Assembly (NCBI GenBank): GCA_024644405.1
Contig: JAHELC010000003.1
Span: 1 to 64,000, forward strand
DNA length: 64,000 bases
Source: Nitrospinaceae bacterium
Lineage (GTDB): Bacteria; Nitrospinota; Nitrospinia; Nitrospinales; Nitrospinaceae
Direction: 5' to 3'
Part shown: one piece after another, positions 1,603 through 21,932 of the stretch
Layout: every line of letters begins with the position of its first letter
How positions within the stretch are numbered: the stretch's first letter is position 1
The notes under the pieces: generated by a model
What the model saw: the letters and a program-made list of their open reading frames with translations, nothing else
Told to the model about the DNA's origin: nothing
Databases searched by the model: none
Translations under genes and position numbers: made by a program

Positions 1603-1652
1603 TTGGTGGGCCGTCACGGGATCGAACCGTGGACCTACTGATTAAGAGTCAG
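1603..1652 (-). repeat. 50-bp direct repeat, tRNA-Lys 3' fragment (att-like)
   Basis: These 50 bases are identical to 21856-21905. They comprise the 3' 49 nt of tRNA-Lys(CTT), from the anticodon loop through the T arm, acceptor strand and encoded CCA, plus one flanking base. The 5' part of the tRNA is absent: the sequence diverges at base 1653. Tyrosine recombinases commonly use exactly this part of tRNA genes as attB, so this is the likely distal attachment site of the island on its right. Confidence 0.8.
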
Positions 1653-1888: not shown

Positions 1889-4057
1889 CTAAAAATAGGC
1901 GCGAAAACCAACCGTAGCGAAATATCCGGTGTTGCTCTCGGTGTTTCCCAAAACTGTATCTTGCCGGAACTCTCGACCGCCCTCCAACTCAAACCGCAAC
2001 CATTTTTTCCATCGATAATCTATTCGCAGAAGGGGCCGAATAGTTACCGTCTCTCCATTATCATTCTTATTTTTCCGAAGATTAGTCTGGATTCTTGGAT
2101 TGATTCTAAAATTTGGGGTAATAGGATAGCGGAGGTTCAGGTTCAATGAATACGAATCATTGCTCATGGTATCTGCATAGCGCATTTCAATTATATTGAT
2201 ATCTCCTTCGATAAATAAATTACTCGCAATCAATTGCGCCAGATAAAAATATTCTTTCCCGGTTGACGGGTTGCCTGGCACTCCCCCCGATGTCGGTGTT
2301 GCCGACAATTCGGAAATAGTAACCTCCCCAACCACCTGATATTTTTCATTTAAATCCTGAACAATCCCAATCGTTGCAGATTTATTAGTGGCCGTACGGT
2401 CTCGAGCCAGTTGACGGATTTCATCTTCAGTAAAAATGTTTAATAATCCCGAAATCTCTTGAACCATTTGTCCTATCAGGGCATTGCTGGTTGTCAGGAT
2501 AGGGCTCTTGCGGTAATCCAATACTAGATTCAACCGAGTTTTGGTAGAAAACGTCCATCCGCCATTAAGCAGAAAAATATTCAATTCATCGTAGGAAATA
2601 TCATAATCCACATAAGAAAAAAGGGATATCTTTGGATCAAAATAACGAATTTCCCCACCTACTGCTCGCCTATCGACTATGCCCTCCACTTCCTGATTAA
2701 TAGCAAAGAGATTGAAATCTACACTATCCCAGAATGTTCCAAGGTTAAAATTCGCACCATAAAAATGTTTATTTGCATTGAATGCACGGTCATCACTGGA
2801 GACCACCGGATATCCAAATACTCCATTGATTGTCACTTCCGGGAGAATTTCATAGCCCACCGATCCTCCGTCAAACCTTCCCAAAATCCCGCCGGAGCTT
2901 CGCGACTGCCTGCCGAAACGGCCAGACAACCCCCACTTTCGATCCTCCAGATCAACAAATAAATTGTTAACCCGAGCCACGTCATCCGATCCATTATTTC
3001 TCAGATTGGCTGCGTAGGTTCCAAAAAACTGGGTCTGGATTTCATACCTGTCACTTCGGGACCGGGTACTGAAGTCCAGACTGGTCAGCGATTCCGACTG
3101 ATTGATTACTTTGGTTCCATCTTCAAATTCGGTGTCGCTATAATTATAAAACTCCGACAAACTGCCAAATACCTGGTGATCCCAAACGGATTCGGCAACG
3201 TCTTCCGGTCTCTTCGGCTTCCGCAGTTTTTCTTTAGGCCTGGCTGCAGCGGTCAACAAACCTGAAAGACGTTGACGCACACGATCTGCTCCGGGACCTT
3301 CCGGGTACAGTTTAAGATATTTTTCGTATTCGGCCTTGGCATGGGCCAATTGCCCATTGCGGTGTCGGGCCAACCCTAAAAGTTCTTGTGCATCTTGGCG
3401 AAACACGGTGTCCGGATTTCTCAGAACTTTTGTATAGAGTTGAATGGCGCGCCGGAAATTGCGGTCAATCATGGCGCCTCCCGCCTCATCCATCAATTCG
3501 ACCATTTTCGGGGCTCCAGTCGACAAATCAGGGATAGGCATCGCTGGCTCTGGAAGAATGACTTCTAATTCAGGTTCTTTTTCAGGCTCCTTGGGTATTT
3601 CGGTCCGCACAACTATTATGAGCGTTCTCAGGTCTCCGCTGTTCCGCACATCGAACTCCACGTCACGGATGAACCTTAGGATCAATTCGGGGCGGTCCGG
3701 TACACCCCCCTCATAGGTCATTTCCTTTAGAGGAATAGAAGTGGAACGATCCCAACTGAGAATCTGCCGTTCACTGAGTTGTTGAATCGTTTCCGGATCA
3801 TCAAGACCAATGACGGATGGCCTCATTTGAATAATAAGAATAGTTCCCTTATTTTTTGGGCGGTGACTGACATATCTCATTGGAAGAAAAAAATCGACTC
3901 GAACTTCGTAACCCGTGGATCGAGCTCTGATATCAACCTTGTTGACAAGGCGGGAAAATGCAGGTGACACAAATAGAAACACTGCACCGAAAACCAGAAT
4001 GAAAATTATGAGCTGGCGAAAAACATTGCAGCGTAATACTCGAATAAAATGGTTCAA
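1889..4057 (-). CDS. Outer-membrane beta-barrel protein with AMIN-like and TPR domains
   Basis: This 722-residue protein has an N-terminal hydrophobic signal segment (about residues 12-35) and then a beta-rich AMIN-like domain (about 37-160), of the kind found in secretins and peptidoglycan amidases. A proline/glutamate linker leads to two TPR units (about 185-265), including LARHRNGQLAHAKAEYEKYL. The last 430 residues or so have alternating polar/aromatic strands and end in VGFRAYF, with the terminal aromatic residue typical of outer-membrane barrels. It is the last gene of the six-gene cytochrome operon, 129 bases after the 16-haem cytochrome. By analogy with porin-cytochrome conduits it could be the sheath through which a cytochrome crosses the outer membrane. 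That role is inferred; it could also be a plain porin or secretion protein. Confidence 0.75.
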   Translation of the reverse strand: MNHFIRVLRCNVFRQLIIFILVFGAVFLFVSPAFSRLVNKVDIRARSTGYEVRVDFFLPMRYVSHRPKNKGTILIIQMRPSVIGLDDPETIQQLSERQILSWDRSTSIPLKEMTYEGGVPDRPELILRFIRDVEFDVRNSGDLRTLIIVVRTEIPKEPEKEPELEVILPEPAMPIPDLSTGAPKMVELMDEAGGAMIDRNFRRAIQLYTKVLRNPDTVFRQDAQELLGLARHRNGQLAHAKAEYEKYLKLYPEGPGADRVRQRLSGLLTAAARPKEKLRKPKRPEDVAESVWDHQVFGSLSEFYNYSDTEFEDGTKVINQSESLTSLDFSTRSRSDRYEIQTQFFGTYAANLRNNGSDDVARVNNLFVDLEDRKWGLSGRFGRQSRSSGGILGRFDGGSVGYEILPEVTINGVFGYPVVSSDDRAFNANKHFYGANFNLGTFWDSVDFNLFAINQEVEGIVDRRAVGGEIRYFDPKISLFSYVDYDISYDELNIFLLNGGWTFSTKTRLNLVLDYRKSPILTTSNALIGQMVQEISGLLNIFTEDEIRQLARDRTATNKSATIGIVQDLNEKYQVVGEVTISELSATPTSGGVPGNPSTGKEYFYLAQLIASNLFIEGDINIIEMRYADTMSNDSYSLNLNLRYPITPNFRINPRIQTNLRKNKNDNGETVTIRPLLRIDYRWKKWLRFELEGGREFRQDTVLGNTESNTGYFATVGFRAYF

Positions 4058-4186
4058 AACCTACATCCCTATTTTTGAATTGGAATTTAGACTTTTCTGA
4101 ATGGAGTTCTTGCTTAAACCGAACGCAGGATCAGAATGCACCAGCACTGACTTGGTGCTGACTGTTATGGTGTTTATCTATGGTGT

Positions 4187-6007
4187 TTATTGGAAAGCCC
4201 CATCCCTTACATTGTGCTGATTGTTATTGGTCTTATCTATGGTAGTCATTGTGCTATCTGTATATTCATGACATGGACCGCTACAGTCTCTTAATTCACT
4301 GACCGAATAGGTGGCATTCGGCGGATATTTATCATGTTTGTCGCGTACATAATTATTGGCATGACACCCAGCGCAGTCGGGTTTGTAAGTCGCGGAGGTC
4401 CAAATAACCGTCTGGGAATTACTCTGATGGCATTGGATGCAAGTTACACTGGAATTATGGTCTCCGGGATAGCTGGCAGAGTTGTGACTGAAATTTATAG
4501 TCAGCCAATTCGTGGTGTTGTGGCATTCGTCACATTGCAAGCTGGTCACAAAATGAGTGGCAGGTTTTCCTGTTGCGGTGGTTCCATTATGACAGGAAGA
4601 ACAACTCCCCGTCACCAGGCTGTGATCAAAATTCGCCGGGCTCCATGCCAGAGTGTTGTGGCAACTATCACATTGTCCCAAAGTTTGAATGTGAGTCGCG
4701 CTTTTGCCGGTGGCGGTGGTGCCGTTGTGACAGGAGGAACAGGTGCCCGTGACCCCAGTGTGGTCAAAATTCACGGTGGTCCAGTTGGTGGTGACGTGAC
4801 AATCGTCACAGGTGTTGGACGTTTGAAGATGGGTGGCGCTTTTGCCGGTAGCGGTGGTGCCGTTGTGACAGCTGAAACAGGTGCCCGTGACCCCGGCGTG
4901 GTCAAAATTCACGGTGGTCCAGTTGGTGGTGACGTGACAATCGTCACAGGTGTTCGCACTCTGAATATGCGTCGCGCTCTTGCCGGTGGCGGTGGTGCCG
5001 TTGTGACAGCTGAAACAGGTTCCTGTAATGGTGCTATGATCAAAACGCGCGGCACTCCAGCGCTGAGTATTGTGACATGATTCGCAGTTATTGGAACTCG
5101 CCATATGGGAGCTGTTTTTACCCATAGCGATAAACCCATTATGACAACTGGAACAAGTTCCAGTGATGGAATTATGGTCCACTCGAAGGACGGATGCCCA
5201 GTTTTGAGTGGTGTGGCAGTTGTCACAAAGGTTGTCCGTCCGGATATGATTCGAACTTTTGGATGTTGACCCCACCATCCCTCCCCGCACATGGCAGGAA
5301 AAACACCTGCGGGGAGTGCCCCGAAAGACCGCACCCACATGGCAACGGTCGCAACGGACCTGAAAATGAGCTCCGGTTAGCGGGAACCCCGTTGCAAGAT
5401 GATTAAACCCAATGGACCCACTCTTTTTTATTCCTTTCCGAGTGGTCCTTTTATTTTGTGCGATTTTTTTGTTTTTTTGTGAAGGAGACGATAGACTTTG
5501 AAGTTTCGAACTCGCATTGCCTGCGATGCCCGATTTTTTCTTGATCACGGAGACCGTTCGTCGTGGCTCCTTGTTGATGGAAGTCAGGGCAATGGGTTTG
5601 TCTTTTTTATTTTCAGCAGAAACACTTGCTTTAATGGATTTCTTTTTCTTCTTCCTATGGACCGATTTGGCTGAAAAGGTTTTCTTTTTCGGGATACCAA
5701 GCATTACTTTGATGCGCAGTTTCTTTTCAGTAATTAGATCTCTGGTCGACTTTTTGTTTCTGGGAGTGGCCATTAATTTTGTTAGTCGCTTGTATTTTTT
5801 AATTCTATCAACAGTTTCTTTAACCGATTCAGTAAAGGGATCAACGTAAATAACCCTTGAAGTTCCCTTGGAAATTTTTCCGGAATCGCCCCTCCGCTGG
5901 TCTTTTTTACTTTGAGAGTAAATCGGTTGCGATATAAACAGGACAAAAAAGCCCAAGAGAAAACCAGCAATGCAAATCGTAATGCAACGATTCCCAGTCC
6001 GGCTCAT
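4187..6007 (-). CDS. Secreted multihaem c-type cytochrome, 16 haem sites with 46-residue repeats
   Basis: From the ATG at 6007 the protein has 606 residues. A classic signal peptide (MSRTGNR then a hydrophobic core ending IYSQS) favours this start, with AGGAG four bases upstream; in-frame starts at 6100 and 6124 would give a 30-39 residue leader. Residues about 32-215 are very rich in lysine and lack haem motifs. The rest carries fifteen CxxCH motifs and, near the C-terminus, one CX3CH (CSGPCH). The core is a 46-residue unit (CxSCHNGTTATGK...CDxCHxTTNW...FDH) repeated about six times, supplying histidines for bis-His ligation. Two adjacent units (near 4743 and 4881) are almost identical in DNA, 138 bases apart, which points to recent duplication. 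It follows the 27-haem gene in the same operon. An electron-wire role is inferred. Confidence 0.85.
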   Translation of the reverse strand: MSRTGNRCITICIAGFLLGFFVLFISQPIYSQSKKDQRRGDSGKISKGTSRVIYVDPFTESVKETVDRIKKYKRLTKLMATPRNKKSTRDLITEKKLRIKVMLGIPKKKTFSAKSVHRKKKKKSIKASVSAENKKDKPIALTSINKEPRRTVSVIKKKSGIAGNASSKLQSLSSPSQKNKKIAQNKRTTRKGIKKSGSIGFNHLATGFPLTGAHFQVRCDRCHVGAVFRGTPRRCFSCHVRGGMVGSTSKSSNHIRTDNLCDNCHTTQNWASVLRVDHNSITGTCSSCHNGFIAMGKNSSHMASSNNCESCHNTQRWSAARFDHSTITGTCFSCHNGTTATGKSATHIQSANTCDDCHVTTNWTTVNFDHAGVTGTCFSCHNGTTATGKSATHLQTSNTCDDCHVTTNWTTVNFDHTGVTGTCSSCHNGTTATGKSATHIQTLGQCDSCHNTLAWSPANFDHSLVTGSCSSCHNGTTATGKPATHFVTSLQCDECHNTTNWLTINFSHNSASYPGDHNSSVTCIQCHQSNSQTVIWTSATYKPDCAGCHANNYVRDKHDKYPPNATYSVSELRDCSGPCHEYTDSTMTTIDKTNNNQHNVRDGAFQ

Positions 6008-6153
6008 GCCACTCCTAACCTTGACATTACCGCTCAATTCCCGGGCAATAATGGAACCCACAAATATCTTCGGGAAACGGTCTTTGATAGACTTGATCAT
6101 TTTTTCTATTCTTCCTGTCAACACAATAAATCTTCCATTCAGTAATCTTCTAT

Positions 6154-8121
6154 TTAATGCCTTATTTGGACCTCCTCAAATGAGGTGGTCACATGACAAC
6201 GTTCGCACCGGCGGCCAAAACTTCCGCGGTGAACATCCTCCTGCGCGTGACAGCCATAGCATCGGGCTGATAAACGGATTTTTTCTTCAACTGGCTGCTT
6301 ATGACAAGCCATACAGTCAAGCCCTTCATGGGATCCGTCTAAATTAAAATCCGTTTGGCTATTGTGATCAAACTCCCACAACTTCCAACCATTGGGGTTG
6401 TGGCAGGTTTCACATACCGGCCCTAGACGCCGTTTGTGCGTGTCCTGGTCTGCGTGGCAATCCATGCATTTTGAAGAGGTTTCCTTATAAGCGGCTGTAA
6501 GGTGACAGGATTCACAGGAAGTGATGGCGTGGATTCCGATCAATGGGAACCGCGCCAGATCGTGCTCGAACCGCACCTTCTTTCCCCAATCCTGCACGTT
6601 ATGGCATTTGTCACACTTTTCCCCCTGCTGGCTTTTATGAACATCGTCGGATTTGTGACAGGAGAAGCAGGTTTTCTCCATTTTAATTTTTTCCTTCACC
6701 GGTTGCATATGGCAAGCGAGGCATGCCAGCTTGTCATGCGCTCCATTCAAGGAAAACTTGGTCTGTTTGTTATGATCAAACTTCCATAATTTCCAGGCCT
6801 TGGGGTTGTGACAGGAATCACATTTCGGCCCCAGCCTCTGTTTATGGATATCGACCTTCATATGGCAGTCCACACATTTGGACGAAGCTTCCTTGTACTT
6901 TGCCGAAAGATGACAGTTTTCACAGGTGGTCACGGCGTGAATTCCCACCAAAGGAAATTTGGTTTTATTGTGGTCGAACTTGACCCGCTTCCCCCAACTC
7001 TGTACATTGTGGCATTTATCGCACTTCTTTCCCTGCTCACCTTTGTGAACGTCATCAATTTTGTGGCAGTCATAACAGAGCTTACCCAGCTTTTCCTTGT
7101 AGGCATTACCCCGGTGGCAATCCAAGCACACCAACTTGGCATGGCGACCCGCCAATTTGAATTTGGTGTCCTTGTCATGACTGAATTTCACCTTAGGCCA
7201 TTTGATAAAGCTATGGCATTTGTTGCATTTTTCACCCATACGTCCTTTATGATCATCGTCACTCCGGTGACAGTCGATACATTCCCGCTTCAATTTTTTC
7301 TTGAAATCGTTGTCCTTGTGGCAGGAATTGCATTTCGCCTGATCGTGGGCGCCTCGAAGCGGGAACTTGGTTTTGTCGTGGTCAAACTTGGTCTTCGGCC
7401 ATCTTGCGGTATTGTGGCATTTGTCGCATTTTTTCCCAAAGCGTCCCTCGTGAACATCGTTGAGAGCATGACAGGAGAAGCATTTCGACGGTGTATTTTT
7501 ATAGCGCTGATTTGGATGACAGCTATTGCACGTTACCTTTTGATGCTTTCCTGTCAACCGGAATTTGGTTTTGTTATGGTCAAACCGTCCCCGGCTCCAG
7601 GACCGCTCTGAATGGCAATTGGAGCAGGTTTTTCCCAACCGGCCAAAGTGGGGATCGTCTTTTTTATGACAATCGATACAACGGGATGGTACTTGCCGGT
7701 ATTTTTTACCGGCGGCATGGCAGTTGCGGCACTTGACGGAACGATGCTTTCCCTTGAGGATGAAATCCGTGGCTTTATGATCGAAGGTTTCCAGGTCCAG
7801 CTGAATGATATCCGCGGCCCTTCCTTTATGATCAGTGTGGCAGTGCTTACACTCGCGCCCTTTCACCTTGAGATTGCGGCCATGAAACCCTTTTCTTTTT
7901 TTGAGGTCAACGCCCACCGGCTTATGGCACTCCAGGCACTTCTCATTCTGCCCGCCTTTTTTAAACAAGGCATGACACTTGGTGCACTCCGATTCGTATT
8001 TGGCGTGACCCTTGACCACGGGCCCCGGCATCAGAAGCTTTTCATAAGAGTCAGCATATGTTTGCAAAGGCAACAACATTATAGCTCCTGTTAATAATCC
8101 TCTAATCAATAAAGATTTCAT
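6154..8121 (-). CDS. Periplasmic 27-haem c-type cytochrome of nine tri-haem modules
   Basis: The protein has 655 residues with a cleavable signal peptide (MKSLLIRGLL...TYADS). I count 27 CxxCH motifs, running from CTKCH near residue 46 almost to the C-terminus. They fall into nine three-haem modules of roughly 65-70 residues. Between modules lies a conserved segment FDHxxTxFxLxGxH, whose histidines are likely distal haem ligands, as in cytochrome c7/c3-type wires. No catalytic domain is visible, so the protein appears to be a long electron-transfer chain. It lies 57 bases downstream of the b-type membrane cytochrome gene, its plausible electron partner at the membrane. Family membership is clear from the motifs; direction of electron flow and donor are inferred. 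Confidence 0.9.
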   Translation of the reverse strand: MKSLLIRGLLTGAIMLLPLQTYADSYEKLLMPGPVVKGHAKYESECTKCHALFKKGGQNEKCLECHKPVGVDLKKRKGFHGRNLKVKGRECKHCHTDHKGRAADIIQLDLETFDHKATDFILKGKHRSVKCRNCHAAGKKYRQVPSRCIDCHKKDDPHFGRLGKTCSNCHSERSWSRGRFDHNKTKFRLTGKHQKVTCNSCHPNQRYKNTPSKCFSCHALNDVHEGRFGKKCDKCHNTARWPKTKFDHDKTKFPLRGAHDQAKCNSCHKDNDFKKKLKRECIDCHRSDDDHKGRMGEKCNKCHSFIKWPKVKFSHDKDTKFKLAGRHAKLVCLDCHRGNAYKEKLGKLCYDCHKIDDVHKGEQGKKCDKCHNVQSWGKRVKFDHNKTKFPLVGIHAVTTCENCHLSAKYKEASSKCVDCHMKVDIHKQRLGPKCDSCHNPKAWKLWKFDHNKQTKFSLNGAHDKLACLACHMQPVKEKIKMEKTCFSCHKSDDVHKSQQGEKCDKCHNVQDWGKKVRFEHDLARFPLIGIHAITSCESCHLTAAYKETSSKCMDCHADQDTHKRRLGPVCETCHNPNGWKLWEFDHNSQTDFNLDGSHEGLDCMACHKQPVEEKIRLSARCYGCHAQEDVHRGSFGRRCERCHVTTSFEEVQIRH

Positions 8122-8178
8122 GCATATTCCAAAAATTAGATTTCTGAAAATTCCGCTTATTCTTAATCTACGATCGGA

Positions 8179-9129
8179 TCAATACGCATGAACCGCAATA
8201 ACATGAAACACGCCTGCCATCATCATCATCACTAACAAGGGAATGTGCAAAATGTGCCACAGCGCAAACAGGCGCTCGTAAACATTGAACTCTGCTACCT
8301 TTCTTATCTGCCTGAGAAAGCGCCAAGCCTCCAGGCGCGCATTCCGCAAATTCCGGCGGTAAACGCTTGCGTTCCACCCTTTCCTGCGAGCTTCCTCCTT
8401 CAGGCCTCGCTTGAGAGAACCGCGCAAACCGCGGTAGGTCCAACGGATTCGCAGACGTATAAAAAAGAAAATGCCTACGCTGAAAAAGAAACCCTTAGAA
8501 TGGCTTAAAATCGAGTTAGCGAAATGGAGCAGTTGTTTCTTCACGTTTGGAGCAAACCCGAGGTTGCGGGCCAGCTCACCCTTTTCTTCTTCCAGCTCGC
8601 ATGTCAGTTCCTCTAAGTTCATGCGTTGGCCGTACAGACCATGATGAATTTGGACGTACAGGTATCTCCCGATCAAACCGCTTCCCGCCACCAGGAGCAT
8701 GGAGAACAGGGCGACGGAGCTGTTGGTCGAACCCAGGGAGAAATTCGCGTGATACAAAATGCAGACCGGACCCAATACGCCCAACATCATATGGTAACGA
8801 AACCAGTAACGGAGGGGACCCCAACGCGCCATAAATCGGAACCGCTTGCGCATGGGATATAAAAGGAGAATCAGCATCATCACGGAACCCAGAATTCCCA
8901 ACAGGTAGCCGGTTCCGGTTTCTGCCGTAAGGTATTCCCTATCCCGCAGTTTCCACCCAGCATAAATGGCAAATCCCGAGAGGAAAAAGAACAGCCCCGC
9001 CCCTACTTTCATCAGAGTTTCCATTCCCCATCCGCTTTTTTTACGGGTGGCCGGGCGCGGAACGCCCTGGCCTTTCGCGGCCGCGGGAGGACTCAACGTT
9101 GAATGGCTTGCTAGCGTTTGAGTATTCAT
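8179..9129 (-). CDS. Membrane b-type cytochrome, ferric-reductase-like
   Basis: This 316-residue protein has about six hydrophobic segments (near residues 41-60, 73-92, 112-130, 137-158, 220-235 and 290-313). Histidines lie in or beside helices at 113, 127, 162/163, 292, 295, 309 and 314. The spacing (YHMMLGVLG...LYHANF and LWHILHIP...FHVIAVHAY) suits binding of two b haems across a membrane, as in cytochrome b561 and ferric-reductase transmembrane domains. A charged, coiled-coil-like loop (about 172-200) would face the cytoplasm. It sits between the Sel1/ankyrin gene and the 27-haem cytochrome gene. The likely role is to pass electrons from the cytoplasmic flavo-iron-sulphur protein to periplasmic haems. 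The exact family is uncertain. Confidence 0.7.
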   Translation of the reverse strand: MNTQTLASHSTLSPPAAAKGQGVPRPATRKKSGWGMETLMKVGAGLFFFLSGFAIYAGWKLRDREYLTAETGTGYLLGILGSVMMLILLLYPMRKRFRFMARWGPLRYWFRYHMMLGVLGPVCILYHANFSLGSTNSSVALFSMLLVAGSGLIGRYLYVQIHHGLYGQRMNLEELTCELEEEKGELARNLGFAPNVKKQLLHFANSILSHSKGFFFSVGIFFFIRLRIRWTYRGLRGSLKRGLKEEARRKGWNASVYRRNLRNARLEAWRFLRQIRKVAEFNVYERLFALWHILHIPLLVMMMMAGVFHVIAVHAY

Positions 9130-9170
9130 GATTACTTTATTAACGAGCCGGCTTTCCTGATACTAGGTTC

Positions 9171-12056
9171 TTAAAAAAGATCTGACAGCCAGTTCCATTC
9201 TCCTTTATGCGAATTAAAAATATCCTGAATATCGGTCCGGTTCTTGGAGACCATCGTATGAGCGAGTTCCCGTTTGTTATTTCGGATCTTGGGATCGGCA
9301 CCGTTCTCCAAAAGCAGTTTCACCGTCTCAATGTGGCCTCCCCTCGAAGCTTCCATCAGGGCTGTATTGCCAGCGAGGTTTCTTTCATTGATCGGACATC
9401 CACCTTCCAAAAGCTTGCGGGCAATCCCGGCATGCCCGCGGTTGGAAGCCATAATCAAAAGCGTGTTACCCACCTTGCTTTTCTGGCGAATGTCCGCTCC
9501 CTTCGCAAGGAAGTACCGGACGATGCTTTCGTGTCCTTTCCACACAGCCTGCATTAAAGGAGTTCTTCCGTCAAAATCGGAAGGCTCCACCTCAGCACCG
9601 TGTTTCATCAATAATTTGACGGCGTTCAAATTCCCGCTATTGGCGGCAAACCAAAGTGGACTACGGCCCTGACCGTCTCGGACGTTCACGCGCGCTCCAC
9701 GTTTCAACAATAGCGTGAGAATTTGAGTCCCGCTGAACCGGGAAGCCAGAATAACGGGCACGGTGCTATTTTTGCGGCTCAAGGTGGTGTTCGCCCCAGC
9801 GGCCAACAGAATTTTTACCATGGCAGGGTTCTTGTCCTGAATGGCGTAAATCAATGCGGTGTTGCCGTCTTTCGGCTGTGTATTGACACGTGCGCCGGCT
9901 TTCACCAACGCCTTAACCACTTCGATGTGCCCATGCTCCGCCGCCCAGATCAGAGGGGTTTTGCTATTAAACTGTTTCGTGTTTGGGTTCGCTCCTTTAT
10001 CCAGAAGCACGCTGACAATTTCCCGGTGCCCCTTCAAGGCGGCACGGCTGAGGGCTGTATGCCCCTGCTCATCGACATCATCGATGGAAACGCCTGATTT
10101 CAGCAAAGCTCGGACCAGGTCCGTCTGCCCACGCCAGGCGGCGACCATCAACAGCGGCCAACCCTGGTAAGCTTGAGTATCTTTTGAACCGATGGATTGG
10201 GTTTTTCTCGGACGGTTGGATTTGAGAACGGCAGTATTGAAAGTTTTTCTCTCGTCCTTTTTAAGCACCGCTCCATGAGCCAATAACATACGTAAAGTGA
10301 CTTTGTCTTTTTTGTAATCCGCAATCTGAGCCGCGTTGAAACCGCTGCCATTTATAATGTTTAGTTTCGCCTCGTTCTGAATCAATATCTTCACCGTACC
10401 CGTGTTGCCCTTCAGCGTGGCAATCATTAGAGGTGTGTTGCCGTTCCGGTCTTTTGCGTTGAGAGGGACCCCCGCCATAATGAGGGGTTTTATAAGTTTA
10501 GGGTGAGAACCCGCGGCTGCAATATGAAGTAGGTTGTCCCCAACTCGATTGGAAGTTTGAATCCGCGCCCCTGAACGGATCAAAGGGTGTACCAATTCTA
10601 CATGCCCCGCTTCAACCGCTTCCATGAGGGGGGTGCGTCCGTGATCGTCTTTGTAATTGGCATCTGCCCCCAGAGCCAACAGTCGTTGCACGTCCTCTGT
10701 GTTGCCCTGGTGGACCGCCTCGAACAACTCCAAATTCAACTTTGACTTGGGTAGGGCAGGCCTTCCCGTTTCAATTTGTTCCAGTTTGGTTTCCGCCTGT
10801 TGATATCCCTGCACGGAGGCTTTCTGGAACCATTGTTTCGCCCTGGAATGGCTGGGTTTCACACCCCAACCGTTTTCATACATGATGCCGAGATTGTATT
10901 GGGCGGCGGCGTGGCCTTGCTTGGCTGAAACCTTCAGCCAGGAAAAGGCGGTCTTGTGACTCTTGGGAACACCCAGTCCGGAACGGTACAGTCCGGCCAA
11001 CTGATATTGAGCTTCGGCATTGCCTTTGCGAGCTAGAGTTTGCAACAATCGCGCCGCTTTTGAAATGTTGTTCCTGCGAACGGCGATTTGAACTTGCTCC
11101 ATTTCTTTTGCAGACCGGATAATTTTTTTAATATTTTTGTTCTTGGTTTTGTTGGCAAGATCTATCGCTGTCCGCCCGTCCCCGTTTTTGATATGAACAT
11201 CCGCGCCCAGATGAATCAGAGTCTGAATCATTGTAAAATTCCGCTTTGTCACCGCGATGTGCAAGGGAGTGTTGTCTTTCCAGTCCCGGCTGTTCACATT
11301 GATTCCTGACTGAACCAGTAGGTAAGTTGACTTAACGTCACCCCGGCGAACCGCGATCAGCAAAGGGTTGTTGCCGGAAGCATCGGCGACGGTGAGTTCG
11401 GCATTCGAATTCAGTAGAACACCTAATGCTGACGGTTGGCCGTTCTCCACGGCAAGGATCAAAGGAGTACGTCCCTGGGGGTCCGGGGCATTGATGTCGG
11501 CTCCCCTTCGGATCAGGTTTTCCACCGCCTGGAGTCGCCCGGCGGCAACGGCATCCCTAAGGGCTTGGTTCATCTTCAAACCTGGGTCATTTTGTTGTCT
11601 TGCCTCCAATTGTTTCAAGGCTTTAAATTTTTCCCAGGCCATTTCGCTGCCTTGCCGGGCAGCGGCTTGATACCATTGGACCGCTCGGGAGGTGTCGGTT
11701 TGTGTGCCCCAACCCTGTTCATACATCACCCCGAGTTGATACTGGGCGTCAACATGTCCCTTGCGCGCGGCCTTTTTCAACCAGAAGACAGCGGTTTCGT
11801 GGTTTTTGGCAACCCCGCGTCCGGACCGAAAGAGGCCTGCCAATTGAAATTGCGCGTCGGTATGGCCCTTTTTCGCCAGAGGTTTCAACAGGCGGGCGGA
11901 CTTGGTGAAATCTTGCAAGCGGGCGGCGGCTTTGGCCTCTGCCAAATCATCTGCAGGGGCGGCAATTCCCAATCCATTCAGCCCGATCGTCCATATCAGG
12001 ATGAGGACCACCAAGTCGAAAATAGAATATGATTTTCTTGTTTCGGTTTTATTCAT
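9171..12056 (-). CDS. Secreted Sel1-like and ankyrin repeat protein
   Basis: The 961-residue protein begins with a signal-type segment (LVVLILIWTIGLNGLGIAAPA, about residues 15-35). It then alternates repeat types: Sel1-like repeats (about 40-155, e.g. AQYQLGVMYEQGWG), ankyrin repeats (about 165-315), two more Sel1-like repeats (about 330-425) and a long ankyrin array to near the C-terminus. Both repeat types are protein-binding scaffolds. No catalytic or haem motif is present. The gene starts 6 bases after the flavoprotein gene ends and lies 41 bases before the b-cytochrome gene, so it is co-transcribed with the electron-transfer genes. It may assemble or stabilise the periplasmic complex; this is inferred from context only. 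Confidence 0.85.
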   Translation of the reverse strand: MNKTETRKSYSIFDLVVLILIWTIGLNGLGIAAPADDLAEAKAAARLQDFTKSARLLKPLAKKGHTDAQFQLAGLFRSGRGVAKNHETAVFWLKKAARKGHVDAQYQLGVMYEQGWGTQTDTSRAVQWYQAAARQGSEMAWEKFKALKQLEARQQNDPGLKMNQALRDAVAAGRLQAVENLIRRGADINAPDPQGRTPLILAVENGQPSALGVLLNSNAELTVADASGNNPLLIAVRRGDVKSTYLLVQSGINVNSRDWKDNTPLHIAVTKRNFTMIQTLIHLGADVHIKNGDGRTAIDLANKTKNKNIKKIIRSAKEMEQVQIAVRRNNISKAARLLQTLARKGNAEAQYQLAGLYRSGLGVPKSHKTAFSWLKVSAKQGHAAAQYNLGIMYENGWGVKPSHSRAKQWFQKASVQGYQQAETKLEQIETGRPALPKSKLNLELFEAVHQGNTEDVQRLLALGADANYKDDHGRTPLMEAVEAGHVELVHPLIRSGARIQTSNRVGDNLLHIAAAGSHPKLIKPLIMAGVPLNAKDRNGNTPLMIATLKGNTGTVKILIQNEAKLNIINGSGFNAAQIADYKKDKVTLRMLLAHGAVLKKDERKTFNTAVLKSNRPRKTQSIGSKDTQAYQGWPLLMVAAWRGQTDLVRALLKSGVSIDDVDEQGHTALSRAALKGHREIVSVLLDKGANPNTKQFNSKTPLIWAAEHGHIEVVKALVKAGARVNTQPKDGNTALIYAIQDKNPAMVKILLAAGANTTLSRKNSTVPVILASRFSGTQILTLLLKRGARVNVRDGQGRSPLWFAANSGNLNAVKLLMKHGAEVEPSDFDGRTPLMQAVWKGHESIVRYFLAKGADIRQKSKVGNTLLIMASNRGHAGIARKLLEGGCPINERNLAGNTALMEASRGGHIETVKLLLENGADPKIRNNKRELAHTMVSKNRTDIQDIFNSHKGEWNWLSDLF

Positions 12057-12062
12057 GGACGT

Positions 12063-13364
12063 TCACGCAGTTCCATATTTGGTTTCCACAGCAACCCCGA
12101 TTTCCTTCAGAAAACCGGTTGGCAAAATACCGCCAGCACAGATGATGACGGCGTCATTCCGCAGAGCAGTGATTATTCCGTTGTGTTCGATGCGCACTTT
12201 TTTTTCCTCGATGGATTTGACGTTGGATTTTAGTAAAACCTTCAGCTGATCAGCCTTGGCGGCCGCATCTACCTTGTCGCGGTTTTTCAGCTTGGCCCGG
12301 GAAAAGGACTCGCTCCGATAGGAAAGGGTGACCGTGGTTCCAGGCTTTTCGGAAATGCTGATGGCTGCCTCCAAAGCGCTGTCGCCACCGCCCACCACCA
12401 GAACATGTTTTCCGCAGTATTGTTCCGGGTCGATCAATCGATACACCACCTTGGAAGAATCTTCTCCCGGTACGCCCAGTTTTCTAGGAGTACCGCGTCT
12501 GCCGATAGCGAGAAGCACATTGCGGGTCGAATAAGTTTTTTTGGTGGTTTTTATTTCAAAGTATGATTCTTTGCGCAAAATCCCTTCCACCCGCTCCTGG
12601 TAATTGATTTTGACGCGGGTCCGTTTTTCAACGCCCTGCCAGAATTTGAGAAGAGATTCCTTGGTGGTTTCGGGGAAATGGATTTTCCCAATGAGGGGCA
12701 GAACCACCGGCTTGGTCATAACAATCTTGCCGCGTGGATAATGGGACACAGAACCTCCCAACGTTAACTGCTCCACAGTGACGGCATCCAGTTTGTGTTC
12801 CATAGCAGCCAGTGAAGCAGAAAATCCGGCGGGTCCGGCACCGATGATCACGACATCCAACAGTTTACCCTTGCCGTTGCGTCCGCGCTTGCGGATCGTA
12901 TCTATAGCCTGACTTCCTTGGGTCACCGCGTTGCGGATAAGGCCCATGCCGCCCAGTTCTCCGGCAATGAAAATACCGGGAACGTTGGTTTCAAAATTCG
13001 GCTTAATAAGAGGGATATCCACCCCGCGTGTTTCCGTTCCGAAGACGAGATCAATAGCTTCAAATGGGCAGGCTGTCTTGCAAGCCCCGTGACCGATGCA
13101 ATGGCTCGGGCCTATCAGTTCCGCCTTGCCCCGAATGATTCCGAGAACGCTTTGCTCCGGGCAGGCCTTGACACAGGCTCCGCAACCGATACACAAATTC
13201 TGATCGATAACGGGGTGGAGTGAGGAGGGTTCCGTTAATCCCGCTTCCAGTTCCTGCTTCTGGATTCGACGGCACCTTTGTTCTTTCCATATTTTGACGC
13301 TTGTGTATCCCCCCAAAATCAAAAGGGCGAGAACAGCGTAAACCAACAAATTTTCCATGACCAA
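12063..13364 (-). CDS. Membrane-anchored ferredoxin/FAD-NAD(P) oxidoreductase
   Basis: The 433-residue protein has one N-terminal transmembrane helix (about residues 5-22). It then has a double ferredoxin domain with CIGCGACVKACP (58-69) and CIGHGACKTACP (89-100), where a histidine replaces one cysteine of the second set. A thioredoxin-reductase-like part follows: FAD motif VVIIGAGPAG (171-180) and a later NAD(P) motif VLVVGGGDSALEAA. The segment NVPGIFIAGELGGMG (about 127-141), normally found at the C-terminus of this fold, precedes the FAD motif. The protein ends at ICAGGILPTGF, so the fold looks circularly permuted. As first gene of the operon it is the likely entry point for electrons from NAD(P)H; it could instead accept electrons and reduce NAD(P). 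Confidence 0.8.
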   Translation of the reverse strand: MVMENLLVYAVLALLILGGYTSVKIWKEQRCRRIQKQELEAGLTEPSSLHPVIDQNLCIGCGACVKACPEQSVLGIIRGKAELIGPSHCIGHGACKTACPFEAIDLVFGTETRGVDIPLIKPNFETNVPGIFIAGELGGMGLIRNAVTQGSQAIDTIRKRGRNGKGKLLDVVIIGAGPAGFSASLAAMEHKLDAVTVEQLTLGGSVSHYPRGKIVMTKPVVLPLIGKIHFPETTKESLLKFWQGVEKRTRVKINYQERVEGILRKESYFEIKTTKKTYSTRNVLLAIGRRGTPRKLGVPGEDSSKVVYRLIDPEQYCGKHVLVVGGGDSALEAAISISEKPGTTVTLSYRSESFSRAKLKNRDKVDAAAKADQLKVLLKSNVKSIEEKKVRIEHNGIITALRNDAVIICAGGILPTGFLKEIGVAVETKYGTA

Positions 13365-13724: not shown

Positions 13725-14633
13725 ATGGACACGAAATGGTTCCGTGCTCCTTACTTTATTATTTTGATGATATTTGGGGGGGTCATGATCATCGCAATGG
13801 TCATAGACAGGCAAGATCGACCTTCTCCAATTTTTGACAACTCTCCCAATCAAACCGCCTCTCTTCCCATTGCTGACAAAAAGGTCGATTCTGCGGTGAT
13901 GGATCTTCCGCTGGACACATTGACCGAGCGCCTGGCCCGAAAACTGGAGAAAAACCCCAATGATATTCCTGGATGGACTCTTTTGGGCCGCTCTTATGCG
14001 ACCATGGGTCAGCACAAAAAATCCGTTCATGCGTTTGAGAAAGCCATGGCCATGGCACCCAATGATGTAAACCTTCGGGTGACCTACGGTGAAACGCTAA
14101 TAACAAGTGCCGACGGCAAAGTTACACCAAAGGCCAATAAAATTTTTATGACCGCCAACAAAATTGATCCACAACATCCGGGGGTACGCTACAATCTGGC
14201 ACTGGCGGACCATCAGGCCGGGAACTCTCAAAAAGCTTACGACGTTTTAACCAACCTCATAAAGGAAGCACCTGCCGGAGCGCCCTGGGTAAAAAAGGTG
14301 GATGATCTACTTGCCAAGGTATCGGGTGAACTGAATTTACCGGTTTCTCCTTCCGGCCCGGCTCCATCGGTTCAACCGGGTAAATCCAAGGGGACGGAAC
14401 TTTCTTCCTCAGAAAAAAATCAGGAGGCGTTTATCCGGAGCATGGTCGATCGCCTGGCTGCCCGGATGGAAAAAAACCCAAGTGATTTGGAAGGCTGGTT
14501 GAAACTGGGGCGCTCTTACAAAGTGCTAGAGGAGTATGACAAAGCGGCGCGGGCATATGAAAAGGCGTTGGCACTGGCTCCGGACAATCCGGAAATCCGC
14601 AAACTGTACCGGGAAATGAAAAAGAGCCGATGA
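13725..14633 (+). CDS. Membrane-anchored TPR protein, CcmI-like
   Basis: The 302-residue protein has an N-terminal transmembrane helix (about residues 7-26). Two related TPR blocks follow (about 62-190 and 235-298), with matching cores LARKLEKNPNDIPGWTLLG and LAARMEKNPSDLEGWLKLG, joined by a Pro/Ser linker. The pattern of several residues, NPxDxxGWxxLGRSY, then AFEKAMAMAP is that of the periplasmic domain of CcmI/NrfG-type proteins. Those bind apocytochrome c during haem attachment. AAGGGGA lies five bases before the ATG. It is transcribed away from the multihaem operon, and a role in maturing those cytochromes is plausible. No other ccm gene is in the window, so the assignment is by similarity of repeats only. 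Confidence 0.6.
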   Translation: MDTKWFRAPYFIILMIFGGVMIIAMVIDRQDRPSPIFDNSPNQTASLPIADKKVDSAVMDLPLDTLTERLARKLEKNPNDIPGWTLLGRSYATMGQHKKSVHAFEKAMAMAPNDVNLRVTYGETLITSADGKVTPKANKIFMTANKIDPQHPGVRYNLALADHQAGNSQKAYDVLTNLIKEAPAGAPWVKKVDDLLAKVSGELNLPVSPSGPAPSVQPGKSKGTELSSSEKNQEAFIRSMVDRLAARMEKNPSDLEGWLKLGRSYKVLEEYDKAARAYEKALALAPDNPEIRKLYREMKKSR

Positions 14634-16138: not shown

Positions 16139-19100
16139 CTAACGGTCGAAGTGATCGTTATTCGGGCCAGCTACCGGAGTTCTCGAGATCCCCAGGAAGG
16201 CCGGCAGGCGAGTAGCCTGTCCTAGCTTACCCGTTTCCGGGACCTGCTCAAAGCAGGTTCCAGAGAATGGATCCAATCCTCCCTGGGTGTCATCGCCCGG
16301 TAAGCAAGGAACACCAGAACGTGTTACCAGGCCGTCACGACCGAAGGTGTTTGCCGGAGCCCGTCCATCAAAGGGCACGAAAATCTCCGGTTGGTCAAAC
16401 GGCGCGGACTTGTGCGCTACCCGTTCATCAGTTTGGGCGAGCAGGAATTTCACCAGGGCCTCTTTGGCATCCTCCAAAGCCCTCTCCCGCTCCGTCCCCG
16501 GTCCCGCTGGCGGAGTCGGCTCCGGTGTACAATTAAGAGCAGCGCCTTGGCACCCCGGAGGGTTGGTATCCGGCATCTGGCCGTATTGCGTTACGATATC
16601 CGGAATTCCATCCAGCAATCCTGGAGGAAGGTCAGTGGTTGCACCGAACCCGAAAGCTTGCAGTTCAATATCCACCAGATTCGGGTCACGGTCCTCCCGG
16701 CTCGTTTCGGGGAAATCCCCACCGCGCATATAGAAATCAATTATCTGACGTAGGGTCAGGTAACTGCCGGTGTGGAAGAAAGGACCGGTGATCTCCACGT
16801 TCCGCAGTTGGGAGGCTTTGGCAGCGCCATTCCTGCCCACACGGTTTTCCACCGGCCAGGTGCCGTTGGGCGGAGCCACCAGACTTCCTGGAACATAAGG
16901 GCCATTGCCCAGCCCCATGTTGGTCGGAACACCGGTTTGGCTGTTGGGACACAACGAATCAGGGTTGTTAAACCCCAAAGGTCCCCAGCCAAAGTTCGGA
17001 GGTCCCGCACCAAAAGTCGCCGGGTCGTAGAGACCGCAATGGATGTCCGCTCCAAACAGGATCTCCGTATACTCGGCCACCGGGGTATGGGTTTTGGTGT
17101 TGGGCGCAAAGGCCAACTCGTCGATGAGCGGATTTGCCTCGCCCGCCGGCAGGTTGTTCGCCCAGTCCGCCAGGTACTCCGGTAAAAGCGGATTAGCCGG
17201 TTCCAATTGCAAGCCCGGATTGACCGACTCCTGATAGTAAAAGGTTGGATTGCCGGCTCCATCCTTGAAGTCACAGTCGAGGCAATCGCCGACGGCTTCA
17301 TACAGGCCGCCGCCCACGCCTAAAGCCGGATCGAAATTGGGCATTGGCCCATCACAAGTCGCCATATCAAAATCAGTGCCGTCATCACAAGGCTCGAAAT
17401 CCTCGCCCCCGAGGTTCTTCATAGCCAGAGCCGCCAGGTTCAGCGGAAAGCCGAAGGGATCATCTCCGCCCCGTAACATGTCTTCCTCCACGGGTCGAAT
17501 CCCGATGTGATAGACACCGTTGTCCTGAAAAGTGGTGCCAAAGGACTGCCCGATCACCCGATCATCAAGATTATCAAATAACAACGGGTCAGCAAATGGG
17601 AAACCAGCATCGTTATATGGTAAAGGAACGCCATTAACGATATATTGTCCAAATACCTCATCGTTGAATAAACGAAAGTCCCGGTTCTCAACTTCGACAC
17701 CGTCCTGCGCATTCTCCTCGAGTTCTTCCGCAAGGCTCAGTCCCGTAACCAACCGAAGTACGCCGGTAGGCTCCGGAGACCCCGGAGGCGTCGGAAACTC
17801 GATTTCGGTACCCGACTGAAGCAACCCGGCGTTCACATTGTTGGTATGATCCGACTGCTCAGGTCCGAGGTGGCAGAGCATGCAACGCGCCGTCCTCAGG
17901 AACGGATTCGATCCGACTCCAGCCGGATTCCTGTTGATCCCTGAGTGAGGATCCACCGCCTGAAACGGAGCGAGTGCGGCAGTCGTATTGCCTCCCGCAA
18001 AGATATCAAACCCGAAAAGTTCATCGGGTCCGAATCCAGCAACCAGGTTGAGCGCCCCCTCAGGAGCCCCGGTGACCAGTTCGCGTATCACGCCAGGAGG
18101 CAAGGTTCCCTGCTCGCCGGGCTGTGCGACGCCATTGCCGAGCATTGGATTCGCATCATTGAACCGATCCCACGGCGTGTCGTCGGGAATCAGCAGTTGC
18201 TCGTAGGCCTGTACTCCCAATCCGAAGAACAGGCTGAAGTTGGCCTCCATCTGGGTGAACTGGAGTGTGTCAGTCGGAACCGCCGGATTATCGGCAACCG
18301 CGATGACAAAGCCATCGAACGGGTCGCAACCCGCTGATGCCCCGATCGCCAAAGCAGCCGCATTAAGCACAGGTTCCCCGTCATGTATTTGCTCACCCGG
18401 TTCGCAGGCGTTGCTCATCGGCACAGATGCACCGTTGAAATGCTGGGTTGTGTTGCTCCAGAGCTGCTCATTGAAAGCCATTTCGATCAGCTCCGGGTAA
18501 GTGGTGCAGAGCCCGGGCTTGCCGGCTGCCGCCACGCCAAGGCCCACACAGATCGAGCCCATGTTGTTGGCCCAGGGTCCGAGCCGACTGTCCGTGGGAT
18601 CCACCTTCTGATTGGCCAGCGGTACCACGCCTGCCTGCAACATCTTCTTGCCGAGCTGTTGCCAGTTGCGACCGAAGAAGGCCATCTCGAATTCGCTCAA
18701 GGGCGGCCCCATAGCCTGGGAAGCCAGGCTGGAAAACCGGATTCTTACCGGTACCCGCGCCTCTCCATCGTCAAATCCCTTGTATTCCTCATACCACTCA
18801 CAGAGACCCTCAGGTCCGAGTTCGGCTTCCGCCGGAGCTGGCAGAGGAAGGAGTTCCTCGGGTTCACCGTCTTCTTCACAGTTTACGTAGATGTGGAAGA
18901 ACGGGTCGGCGGGACCAAACACACTGCCGCCATTATAATCATGGCGGGCGCGCCCGTCCCAGAAGTTGTCGAAATTAAACGCCGCGGAATGCATGGTCGG
19001 CGTATTGCGGGGCTCGACCCGGCGCAACTTATTACCGTTTGCATCTACCATAGATGCAATCGGCTCGGCAATTGGAGTACCCATATCCGGGGCCAAGGGC

Positions 19101-20566
19101 GCTACGCCCAGGGTGGCCGGATTGAATGCCCCTGCCCCTACGATGACGTCATCAAACTGAACGGCTTCGCTGACGCCCATGGAAGCCATAACGTCGTTGG
19201 CATCGCTCATTACATTAATTGGATTCTTCAGCGGCTCACCCACTTCGTTCACGTCATCCAATTTGTGGAACGGAAAGTCGCCGGCCACCACATTCTCATT
19301 CGGTCCTTTGACCTGCAAGGTGTGGTCTGGAGTTACGGCTATATGATTAGGGTTGAGCTGGTTGCGGGTCCGGGTATCAATGCCGCCGGCGAAATGGCAG
19401 GAGCCACAGGCCTGAACCGTATCGCTGCCAATTTGCATATCCCAGAACAAGGCCTTACCCAGGACCTCCGCGGCCAGCCGATCCTCAATAAAATGAGTTT
19501 CGTTGACCGGCTGTTCGAGTTCCACAACGGGTTCTATTTCTCCGCTATCCTCGTCCTCTGCGAGAATTATTCCATCTGCATCACAGGACAGTTCCGCGAT
19601 AATGGTGCGGTGAGGCGGAATGCGGTTATCACCTTGGCCCGGTCCACTTCTGGGGCCCAAGTCCAATTGATTTCGGGCACCATTGCCGACCGGGTTGGAA
19701 ACCACAAGCGACCCATCAGGCGGCGCGGGTATATAATCCGGATCCGCCGGGTCGATCACTCCATTCCCGTTAAAGTCAGTGTCTTCGGGGTCAACCAATC
19801 CATTACCGTTAACGTCAATGTCTCCTCCGAAACCCACGTCGTCGCAGGGACCTCCTATATTCCAATTTCCTTGTCCACTCGGTTTTTCAACAGCACTACC
19901 CCCCATGCAGGTTACCAGTATGCCAATCGGAGTCCGTAATTCAGTGGGGATGTTGCTTACTAATCCCAGTGATTCTCCAGGAGGGGTCACAGCAACAGTC
20001 TCGTCGGGATCAAACAGATATCCCGGCTGGTTCCAATCGATTTCCCCATCCGGCCGACTGCGCAGAGGCTGGCCGGTGAGTACATTGTGGCACGGATGAA
20101 AAAGTTTGAAGTCGCCGGGCATGGCAACCTCTGTTCCCCTGTTGGGGTTCGGTGTTACACCGTCTGGCATGAAATACGACTCGAAATGCTTACGGCGTTC
20201 TGCCGTTGAAGTGCAGAAGATGCTCTCGTCCTCCTTATTAAATTTCACGCCACCATTATCCGTCAAGGGGTCGTCCGGATCGCATACAAAAGCGTACGGA
20301 TCTTCCAGGAGTTCAACAATCTCCTTCCAAAGGGGGACCCTCTTCAGAGAGCCCGCCGGCCCGACTTCCGTTTCTACTTCAATCGGAAGTTCGGGGACTA
20401 CCGATGGGGTGGTTATTATCTCTCCAGGAGCGGCCATTGCGGGCGATACCGGGAACATAAAAAAAGCTGGTAACCCTAGGGCCACCAGCACAAAAAACAC
20501 GGTATTAATGATACATGATGCTGTAAAATTTAATTTTGGGTCAAACACTTCAACTGAGTCCTTCAT
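16139..20566 (-). CDS. Giant di-haem cytochrome c peroxidase/MauG-family protein
   Basis: The protein has 1475 residues, about three to four times the usual length of bacterial di-haem peroxidases. It has a signal peptide (cleavage near AMAAPGE) and, at about 251-280, two calcium-loop-like DxNGNGxxDPxD repeats. Haem site 1 is CGSCH (about 387-391). The family block RNTPTMHSAAFNFDNFWDGR follows, then haem site 2, CMLCH (about 895-899). The C-terminal family block (RNVEITGPFFHTGSYLTLRQ) is near 1270. These landmarks are those of the CCP/MauG superfamily, with large Pro/Asp/Gly-rich insertions. AGGAGG lies seven bases before the ATG. Substrate is unknown: hydrogen peroxide reduction or oxidation of a large or protein substrate are both possible. 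Confidence 0.85.
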   Translation of the reverse strand: MKDSVEVFDPKLNFTASCIINTVFFVLVALGLPAFFMFPVSPAMAAPGEIITTPSVVPELPIEVETEVGPAGSLKRVPLWKEIVELLEDPYAFVCDPDDPLTDNGGVKFNKEDESIFCTSTAERRKHFESYFMPDGVTPNPNRGTEVAMPGDFKLFHPCHNVLTGQPLRSRPDGEIDWNQPGYLFDPDETVAVTPPGESLGLVSNIPTELRTPIGILVTCMGGSAVEKPSGQGNWNIGGPCDDVGFGGDIDVNGNGLVDPEDTDFNGNGVIDPADPDYIPAPPDGSLVVSNPVGNGARNQLDLGPRSGPGQGDNRIPPHRTIIAELSCDADGIILAEDEDSGEIEPVVELEQPVNETHFIEDRLAAEVLGKALFWDMQIGSDTVQACGSCHFAGGIDTRTRNQLNPNHIAVTPDHTLQVKGPNENVVAGDFPFHKLDDVNEVGEPLKNPINVMSDANDVMASMGVSEAVQFDDVIVGAGAFNPATLGVAPLAPDMGTPIAEPIASMVDANGNKLRRVEPRNTPTMHSAAFNFDNFWDGRARHDYNGGSVFGPADPFFHIYVNCEEDGEPEELLPLPAPAEAELGPEGLCEWYEEYKGFDDGEARVPVRIRFSSLASQAMGPPLSEFEMAFFGRNWQQLGKKMLQAGVVPLANQKVDPTDSRLGPWANNMGSICVGLGVAAAGKPGLCTTYPELIEMAFNEQLWSNTTQHFNGASVPMSNACEPGEQIHDGEPVLNAAALAIGASAGCDPFDGFVIAVADNPAVPTDTLQFTQMEANFSLFFGLGVQAYEQLLIPDDTPWDRFNDANPMLGNGVAQPGEQGTLPPGVIRELVTGAPEGALNLVAGFGPDELFGFDIFAGGNTTAALAPFQAVDPHSGINRNPAGVGSNPFLRTARCMLCHLGPEQSDHTNNVNAGLLQSGTEIEFPTPPGSPEPTGVLRLVTGLSLAEELEENAQDGVEVENRDFRLFNDEVFGQYIVNGVPLPYNDAGFPFADPLLFDNLDDRVIGQSFGTTFQDNGVYHIGIRPVEEDMLRGGDDPFGFPLNLAALAMKNLGGEDFEPCDDGTDFDMATCDGPMPNFDPALGVGGGLYEAVGDCLDCDFKDGAGNPTFYYQESVNPGLQLEPANPLLPEYLADWANNLPAGEANPLIDELAFAPNTKTHTPVAEYTEILFGADIHCGLYDPATFGAGPPNFGWGPLGFNNPDSLCPNSQTGVPTNMGLGNGPYVPGSLVAPPNGTWPVENRVGRNGAAKASQLRNVEITGPFFHTGSYLTLRQIIDFYMRGGDFPETSREDRDPNLVDIELQAFGFGATTDLPPGLLDGIPDIVTQYGQMPDTNPPGCQGAALNCTPEPTPPAGPGTERERALEDAKEALVKFLLAQTDERVAHKSAPFDQPEIFVPFDGRAPANTFGRDGLVTRSGVPCLPGDDTQGGLDPFSGTCFEQVPETGKLGQATRLPAFLGISRTPVAGPNNDHFDR

Positions 20567-21855: not shown

Positions 21856-21905
21856 TTGGTGGGCCGTCACGGGATCGAACCGTGGACCTACTGATTAAGA
21901 GTCAG
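21856..21905 (-). repeat. 50-bp direct repeat, copy inside intact tRNA-Lys
   Basis: These bases are identical to 1603-1652, with an offset of 20,253 bases. The copy covers the 3' 49 nt of the tRNA plus one flanking base, and marks the tRNA-proximal end of the putative island. Confidence 0.8.
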
Positions 21906-21932
21906 TTGCTCTACCAGTTGAGCTAACGGCCC
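21857..21932 (-). tRNA. tRNA-Lys (anticodon CTT)
   Basis: The minus strand folds as a 76-nt tRNA. Its 7-bp acceptor stem is GGGCCGT/ACGGCCC, the D arm includes TAGCTCAACTGGTAGAGCA, the anticodon stem is ACTGA/TCAGT around CTCTTAA (anticodon CTT, Lys), and the T arm has GGTTCGATCC. The terminal CCA is encoded. A terminator follows. Its 3' half is duplicated 20 kb away. Confidence 0.97.

Follow-up and report, generated by a model that had tools for sequence, protein, structure and literature searches.

The stretch of DNA analysed here (the window) comprises 64,000 nucleotides from a Nitrospinaceae bacterium (contig JAHELC010000003.1), and it contains six open reading frames, denoted A to F in order of transcription, that all lie on the minus strand and are read from position 13364 to 1889 (Table 1). 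A sequence-only reading of the window had described these genes as an operon for a flavoprotein (A), a repeat protein (B), a b-type membrane protein (C), cytochromes with 27 haems (D) and 16 haem sites (E), and an outer-membrane barrel (F). Both the co-directional arrangement and the assignment of gene roles were borne out. The genes are separated by 6 (A-B), 41 (B-C), 57 (C-D) and 129 (E-F) bases, and the D-E gap is 29 bases, or 146 if gene E begins at the better-placed ATG 6007, which is its likely start. For gene A, a start at ATG 13358 is more likely than one at TTG 13364. On the 3' side of gene F a terminator-like hairpin was detected, by consensus scan only.

Table 1. Features of the six-gene locus and its surroundings.
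Feature	Position	Strand	Basis
Gene A: N-terminal membrane anchor, ferredoxin-type domain, FAD/NAD(P) domain	12063..13364	-	Pfam/NCBIfam, PDB relatives
Gene B: signal-peptide-like N terminus, Sel1 and ankyrin repeats	9171..12056	-	Pfam
Gene C: PCC3-type inner-membrane protein, five transmembrane helices	8179..9129	-	motifs, AlphaFold2
Gene D: 27-haem cytochrome of three-haem units, presumed periplasmic	6154..8121	-	haem motif count
Gene E: 16-haem cytochrome, signal peptide, Lys/Ser-rich N-terminal segment	4187..6124	-	MtrA/DmsE-like
Gene F: outer-membrane protein, periplasmic beta domain, TPR and 22-strand barrel	1889..4057	-	AlphaFold2, Foldseek
CcmH/NrfG-like TPR gene, divergent neighbour	13725..14633	+	Pfam TPR_CcmH_CycH 4e-31
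Complete tRNA-Lys(CTT), near island boundary	21857..21932	-	ARAGORN, Rfam
Exact 49-bp copy of the tRNA-Lys(CTT) 3' end, far island boundary	1604..1652	-	blastn 100% over 49 bp

Assignment of genes C to F to PCC3

PCC3 was described by He et al. in 2017 (PMC5566968) and has been surveyed in the Gallionellaceae (PMC10734462). As published it consists of four genes, comes from Proteobacteria and is modelled with inward electron flow to quinone, whereas the present locus is a single operon of six genes, A and B included, from Nitrospinota. The likeness lies in C to F, with a porin, an inner-membrane protein of about 300 aa with SGXXG and two WX3HX13H motifs, and large multihaem cytochromes (MHCs). 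The large outer-membrane barrel, the two adjacent MHCs with few residues per haem and the five transmembrane helices of the inner-membrane protein are all present, and the PCC3 gene order porin-MHC-MHC-inner-membrane protein is found as F-E-D-C in the window and in most relatives. Published periplasmic MHCs of PCC3 carry 21, 24 or 27 haems, and the extracellular ones 10-18 in the main cluster (PMC10734462). Since D (27) and E (16) fall inside these ranges and the motifs of C are present, the four genes fit PCC3. Judged by these features C to F are a PCC3, so not a new conduit; a wholly new conduit was rejected, and the earlier placing of the gene set outside the known Mtr and Pcc conduits has to be given up for the core. 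What is new is that the set has six parts and includes a likely NAD(P)H partner, that its host belongs to Nitrospinota, a phylum to which PCC3 is thereby extended, and that it lies on an apparent island. Later publications (PMC8788666, PMC12442390, PMC13386937) still treat PCC3 as four genes of putative function.

Protein C (316 aa) contains W109-H113-H127, SGLIG at residues 150-154, and W291-H295-H309, and the four histidines of the two WX3HX13H motifs are invariant in all 68 aligned relatives. The AlphaFold2 model (pLDDT 83) has five long helices. C matches no Pfam family, the ferric reductase domain FRD (PF01794) included; a Foldseek search of the PDB with the model gave no match at E<=0.001, and neither a PDB sequence search nor a scan of viral contigs yielded a useful one. 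Loop 2 (+5.3) and the 120-residue loop 4 (+11.9) carry a strongly positive charge and loops 1 and 3 are near neutral, which puts H113/H295 on the cytoplasmic side of the membrane and H127/H309 on the periplasmic side. C is presumed to be a di-haem b cytochrome with one b-haem at each face of the membrane. Proteins with a weak, distant likeness to C on Methylophaga and Variovorax plasmids were set aside as members of another cluster, with a 2Fe-2S protein, a small cytochrome and no barrel, and C-like matches in three further genomes (G058, G009 and G021; labels of this kind are our own) likewise belong to a different cluster. The Methylophaga/Variovorax module lies near copper-resistance genes and is possibly a related minimal inner-membrane module.

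Both D and E match Cytochrome_C7/c3 in Pfam and use about 23 residues per haem. The 27 CXXCH motifs of D follow a repeated spacing of 16-18, 18 and 32-33 residues; in E the spacing is a near-constant 23, and 15 CXXCH motifs are followed by one CX3CH (C614/C618/H619) as the last of the 16 haem sites, a variant found near the C terminus in 25 of 43 E homologues. The haem number of D homologues is 18, 21, 24, 27 or 33, with a count divisible by three in 53 of 55, and that of E homologues ranges from 9 to 73 (odd in 36 of 43). These steps, of three in D and mostly of two in E, suggest growth by whole repeat units.

E, but not D, matches chain A of PDB entry 6r2q at E 2e-5; we take this entry to be MtrCAB with MtrA as chain A, the molecule label in the entry file being mis-named. 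The DmsE/MtrA family is matched by all 17 E homologues compared and by four of 18 D homologues, and E itself scores 64.5 bits against a family cut-off of 192, below membership of the MtrA-type decahaem family. Because E, and not D, resembles MtrA, E is favoured as the cytochrome that threads the barrel and D as a wire that spans the periplasm; that E is the likelier of the two in the barrel would modify the published picture. A lipobox-like motif occurs in none of 43 E homologues, in one of 56 D homologues, and not in E of the window.

For protein F, Pfam returned only a weak TPR match. The AlphaFold2 model (mean pLDDT 87) begins with a periplasmic beta domain and TPR helices, followed by 22 barrel strands, and Foldseek related it to porin and usher folds. 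A SPOR domain, which binds peptidoglycan, is present in 18 of 35 F homologues.

Other known systems are related in part only. MtrCAB, MtoAB and PioAB share the logic of a cytochrome in a barrel and the score of E to the DmsE/MtrA family, but the present locus has 16 and 27 haems rather than 10, a 22-strand barrel with TPR and beta (often SPOR) domains, no MtrC-like lipoprotein, and a b-type inner-membrane partner instead of CymA. Geobacter Pcc (OmbB-OmaB-OmcB) likewise combines a barrel with two multihaem cytochromes; in contrast to it, the homologues of E and (with one exception) D lack a lipobox, and haem numbers and inner-membrane partner differ. PCC4 shows a similar SGXXG/HX13H logic in its inner-membrane protein, and one PCC4 subgroup has an upstream Fe-S gene, but PCC4 has no extracellular cytochrome and the inner-membrane proteins are not homologous overall (PMC5566968). 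Membership of MtrCAB, of Geobacter Pcc and of the FRD/NADPH oxidase (NOX) group was rejected on account of the score below cut-off, the missing lipobox and the missing FRD domain, respectively.

Genes A and B as companions of PCC3

Protein A matches Pyr_redox_3 (8e-42) and Fer4_10 (2e-12) in Pfam and is by domain content a 2[4Fe-4S]-type/FAD/NAD(P) flavoprotein. The PDB structures nearest to its FAD/NAD(P) domain are YpdA, thioredoxin reductase and a TrxR-type ferredoxin-NADP reductase (FNR), and from its sequence A likely oxidises NAD(P)H. The first cluster motif reads C58-x2-C61-x2-C64-x3-C68, in which C61 is a cysteine in 79 of 84 homologues. In the second (C89-x2-H92-x2-C95-x3-C99), a histidine replaces a ferredoxin cysteine; H92 is invariant in 84 of 84 homologues and across phyla, as is the pattern CxxHxxCxxxCP among the homologues, which makes this cluster a candidate histidine-ligated or three-iron site. 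An N-terminal transmembrane helix was found in 82 of 83 homologues, with a mean net charge of -0.5 before and +3.2 after it. From this charge bias around the anchor, and by the positive-inside rule, the redox domain of A is placed in the cytoplasm. Protein B matches Ank_2 (3e-117) and Sel1 and is presumed to be a periplasmic scaffold.

A scan of GTDB contigs with A gave at least 527 relatives, of which the best 80 were used for the counts of neighbouring genes. PCC3 genes adjoin A in 69 of these 80 loci, and in the remaining 11 the contig ends within about 4.3 kb of A. Of the 69 PCC3-linked loci, 58 have a B-type protein beside A, a weaker count since ankyrin matches are unspecific. Across 150 genomes of the Gallionella-MAG family (MAG, metagenome-assembled genome), C is present in 61 and A in 64, with both in 60, C only in 1, A only in 4 and neither in 85 (Fisher 8e-36, an optimistic value given the phylogenetic relatedness of the genomes). 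In this family, 54 of 66 A copies lie at most 3 kb from a C copy, with a median gap of 373 bases. Across phyla, A thus accompanies PCC3 almost constantly, and both A and B are here counted as part of PCC3. Independent occurrence of the parts, which would have spoken against the sequence-only reading, was thus checked, and the parts were found to travel together.

The arrangement varies between lineages. In most Proteobacteria A-B is transcribed divergently from C-F, and all six genes are co-directional in Nitrospinota, Myxococcota, one Omnitrophota MAG and some Alphaproteobacteria. In Bradyrhizobium STM 3843, named by He et al. among the original PCC3 carriers (PMC5566968), A and B lie next to C-D-E. 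The Emticicia plasmid pEMTOL02 (Bacteroidota) has the order C-A-D-E-F without B, with A at 49% identity; its PCC3 set lies beside further cytochrome, Rieske and barrel genes, which form a second group. No link of PCC3 to an ankyrin protein or a flavoprotein, and no mention of the genes flanking the Sideroxydans clusters, was found in the full-text literature searched, which contained few subscription journals and no supplements.

Within the phylum, 77 genomes were compared, and close homologues of C were found in five of them, scattered. The complete set A-B-C-D-E-F is kept in order and direction in a genome of another family (G027), and a genome of another genus (G012, recorded as Nitrospinaceae OFTM7) has A to E up to the contig end. 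In a third (G056), A and B-C-D are found on separate contigs, that of B-C-D being 3.4 kb long. In a tree of A the window groups with G027 and OFTM7 (support 100/100). As the set recurs in the same order and direction in other genomes, its recurrence as a whole is far beyond chance. In G057, C and D are kept, A is absent, B is shortened, E is cut after about five haems and F is not detectable, as if A and the conduit decay together.

Proposed electron path and direction

Our preferred reading, with a rough probability of 0.55, is that the locus is a PCC3 conduit with its own inner-membrane NAD(P)H electron source in the same operon and an outward path to the cell exterior. Building on gene content, motifs and the linkage of A to PCC3, NAD(P)H would give up its electrons to the FAD of A at the cytoplasmic face, and these would pass via the two predicted cluster sites of A to C. 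Within C they would move from the inner b-haem (H113/H295) across the membrane to the outer one (H127/H309), and from there be handed over to D, the putative 27-haem wire through the periplasm. From D they would reach E, an MtrA-like 16-haem wire predicted to thread the barrel F, and thereby the cell exterior; B probably holds or assembles parts in the periplasm. The gene roles fit the earlier proposal of an envelope-spanning path with an NAD(P)H-linked flavoprotein at its inner end, and such a path could form.

A and C together would be a split counterpart of NADPH oxidase/ferric reductase: a transmembrane NAD(P)H dehydrogenase in two parts, with D as its electron acceptor. By analogy with those enzymes, it would combine a cytoplasmic NAD(P)H/FAD module and a membrane protein having paired HX13H, and would send electrons outward. 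In contrast to NADPH oxidase and ferric reductase, however, the present module would consist of two proteins, with Fe-S clusters between FAD and haem and a multihaem wire as acceptor; C gives no Pfam FRD match and shares only the HX13H spacing. Outward flow from NAD(P)H is downhill and aided by the membrane potential, whereas electrons moving inward to NAD(P)+ would go uphill and against that potential.

Inward flow is nevertheless what the published PCC3 model, with A added to it, would entail. An extracellular donor such as Fe(II), Mn(II) or a mineral would deliver electrons through F, E and D to C and on to quinone, and A would draw from C or from quinol to reduce NAD(P)+ with an input of energy. 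PCC3 is frequent in iron oxidisers (PMC10734462), and C was modelled as a quinone-active cytochrome (He et al. 2017, PMC5566968), but many PCC3 hosts are not known for metal oxidation and a proton-coupling subunit was not found in the clusters. Expression data point both ways. Sideroxydans ES-1 lowered its PCC3 expression on Fe(II) (PMC8788666), which fits outward flow, and in Sideroxydans CL21 iron oxidation was accompanied by an increase in the inner-membrane component of one PCC3 copy (PMC12442390). On balance we regard inward flow as rather unlikely.

The CL21 result is one of several points that weigh against the outward path from NAD(P)H. The reduction of C by A, and the cofactors bound to both, are what we infer from the genes. 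The divergent orientation of A-B in most Proteobacteria could mean that A is separately regulated. Some Gallionellaceae genomes have extra copies of C without a second A, so that C can probably use another donor. C has no significant fold match to known b cytochromes. Finally, haem-rich sequence inflates similarity scores, which makes the MtrA match of E moderate evidence.

A might also lie outside the electron path, with C talking only to quinone. It would then serve in maturation or protection, for instance by holding haem-site cysteines or a thiol partner in the reduced state, or would act as a redox sensor for the cluster. The kinship of its FAD/NAD(P) part with YpdA and thioredoxin reductases, its frequent position in a separate divergent transcript unit and the CcmH-like gene next door would suit such a role. 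We consider it improbable, as the homologue alignment shows no conserved redox dithiol in the FAD domain, two iron-sulphur motifs and a membrane anchor are conserved, and the best homologues are tied to PCC3 and not to cytochrome c genes generally. That the cytochromes are periplasmic only, for storage or redox buffering, with F an unrelated porin, would agree with a localisation that is predicted only and with an E that lacks a lipobox, but is very improbable given that F is a large 22-strand barrel and a conserved neighbour of E across phyla, and that E is MtrA-like.

Extended beyond this locus, the preferred outward reading would make PCC3 in general an oxidoreductase between NAD(P)H and an extracellular acceptor, with the quinone pool bypassed and with a NOX-like A and C wired to giant multihaem cytochromes, and would have it spread between phyla partly by plasmids and tRNA islands; we put this forward tentatively, at somewhat less than even odds. 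PCC3 is widespread among bacteria that oxidise iron and ranks as a candidate iron oxidase; with an NAD(P)H flavoprotein as its near-constant partner, the default hypothesis on electron direction changes. With A as the fifth component of PCC3, the direction can be tested in culturable hosts, e.g. Sideroxydans, Bradyrhizobium and Emticicia.

Genomic setting

The operon lies on an apparent genomic island. The tRNA-Lys(CTT) gene and the 49-bp copy of its 3' end have the same orientation and bracket 20.2 kb that contain the operon, which has 45-53% GC compared with mostly 50-57% elsewhere in the window. A search between the 49-bp repeats found no integrase, and an empty integration site could not be demonstrated, since the left flank reaches the contig end after only 1.6 kb and lacks conservation within the genus. 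In one genome of the same genus (G019), tRNA-Lys is followed by DabA and an antiporter-like subunit and then by a degenerate 45-base copy of its own 3' end (84%; L150, G019:C120, 4330-11643), and in another (G015) other genes follow it. Because these two genomes hold different genes there, tRNA-Lys is regarded as a site of variable cargo. DabA at the G019 site is an inorganic-carbon transporter gene. The decayed PCC3 cluster of G057 (L027, 8052-16343) has a tRNA-Lys(CTT) 4.5 kb away.

A 360-base AT-rich gap separates gene A from the divergent CcmH-like TPR gene, which possibly helps haem attachment for the operon. Elsewhere on the island, at 16139-20566 (minus strand), a secreted protein of 1475 aa with two MauG/di-haem cytochrome c peroxidase stretches is encoded. 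Window positions of about 1208-1346 are similar to many intergenic sites in genomes of the genus and are probably a dispersed repeat. Other multihaem genes in the same genome encode 11- and 10-haem proteins, and a 10-haem protein of 895 aa is encoded with small cytochromes (G000:C9 7177-13123; G000:C6 6368-12417).

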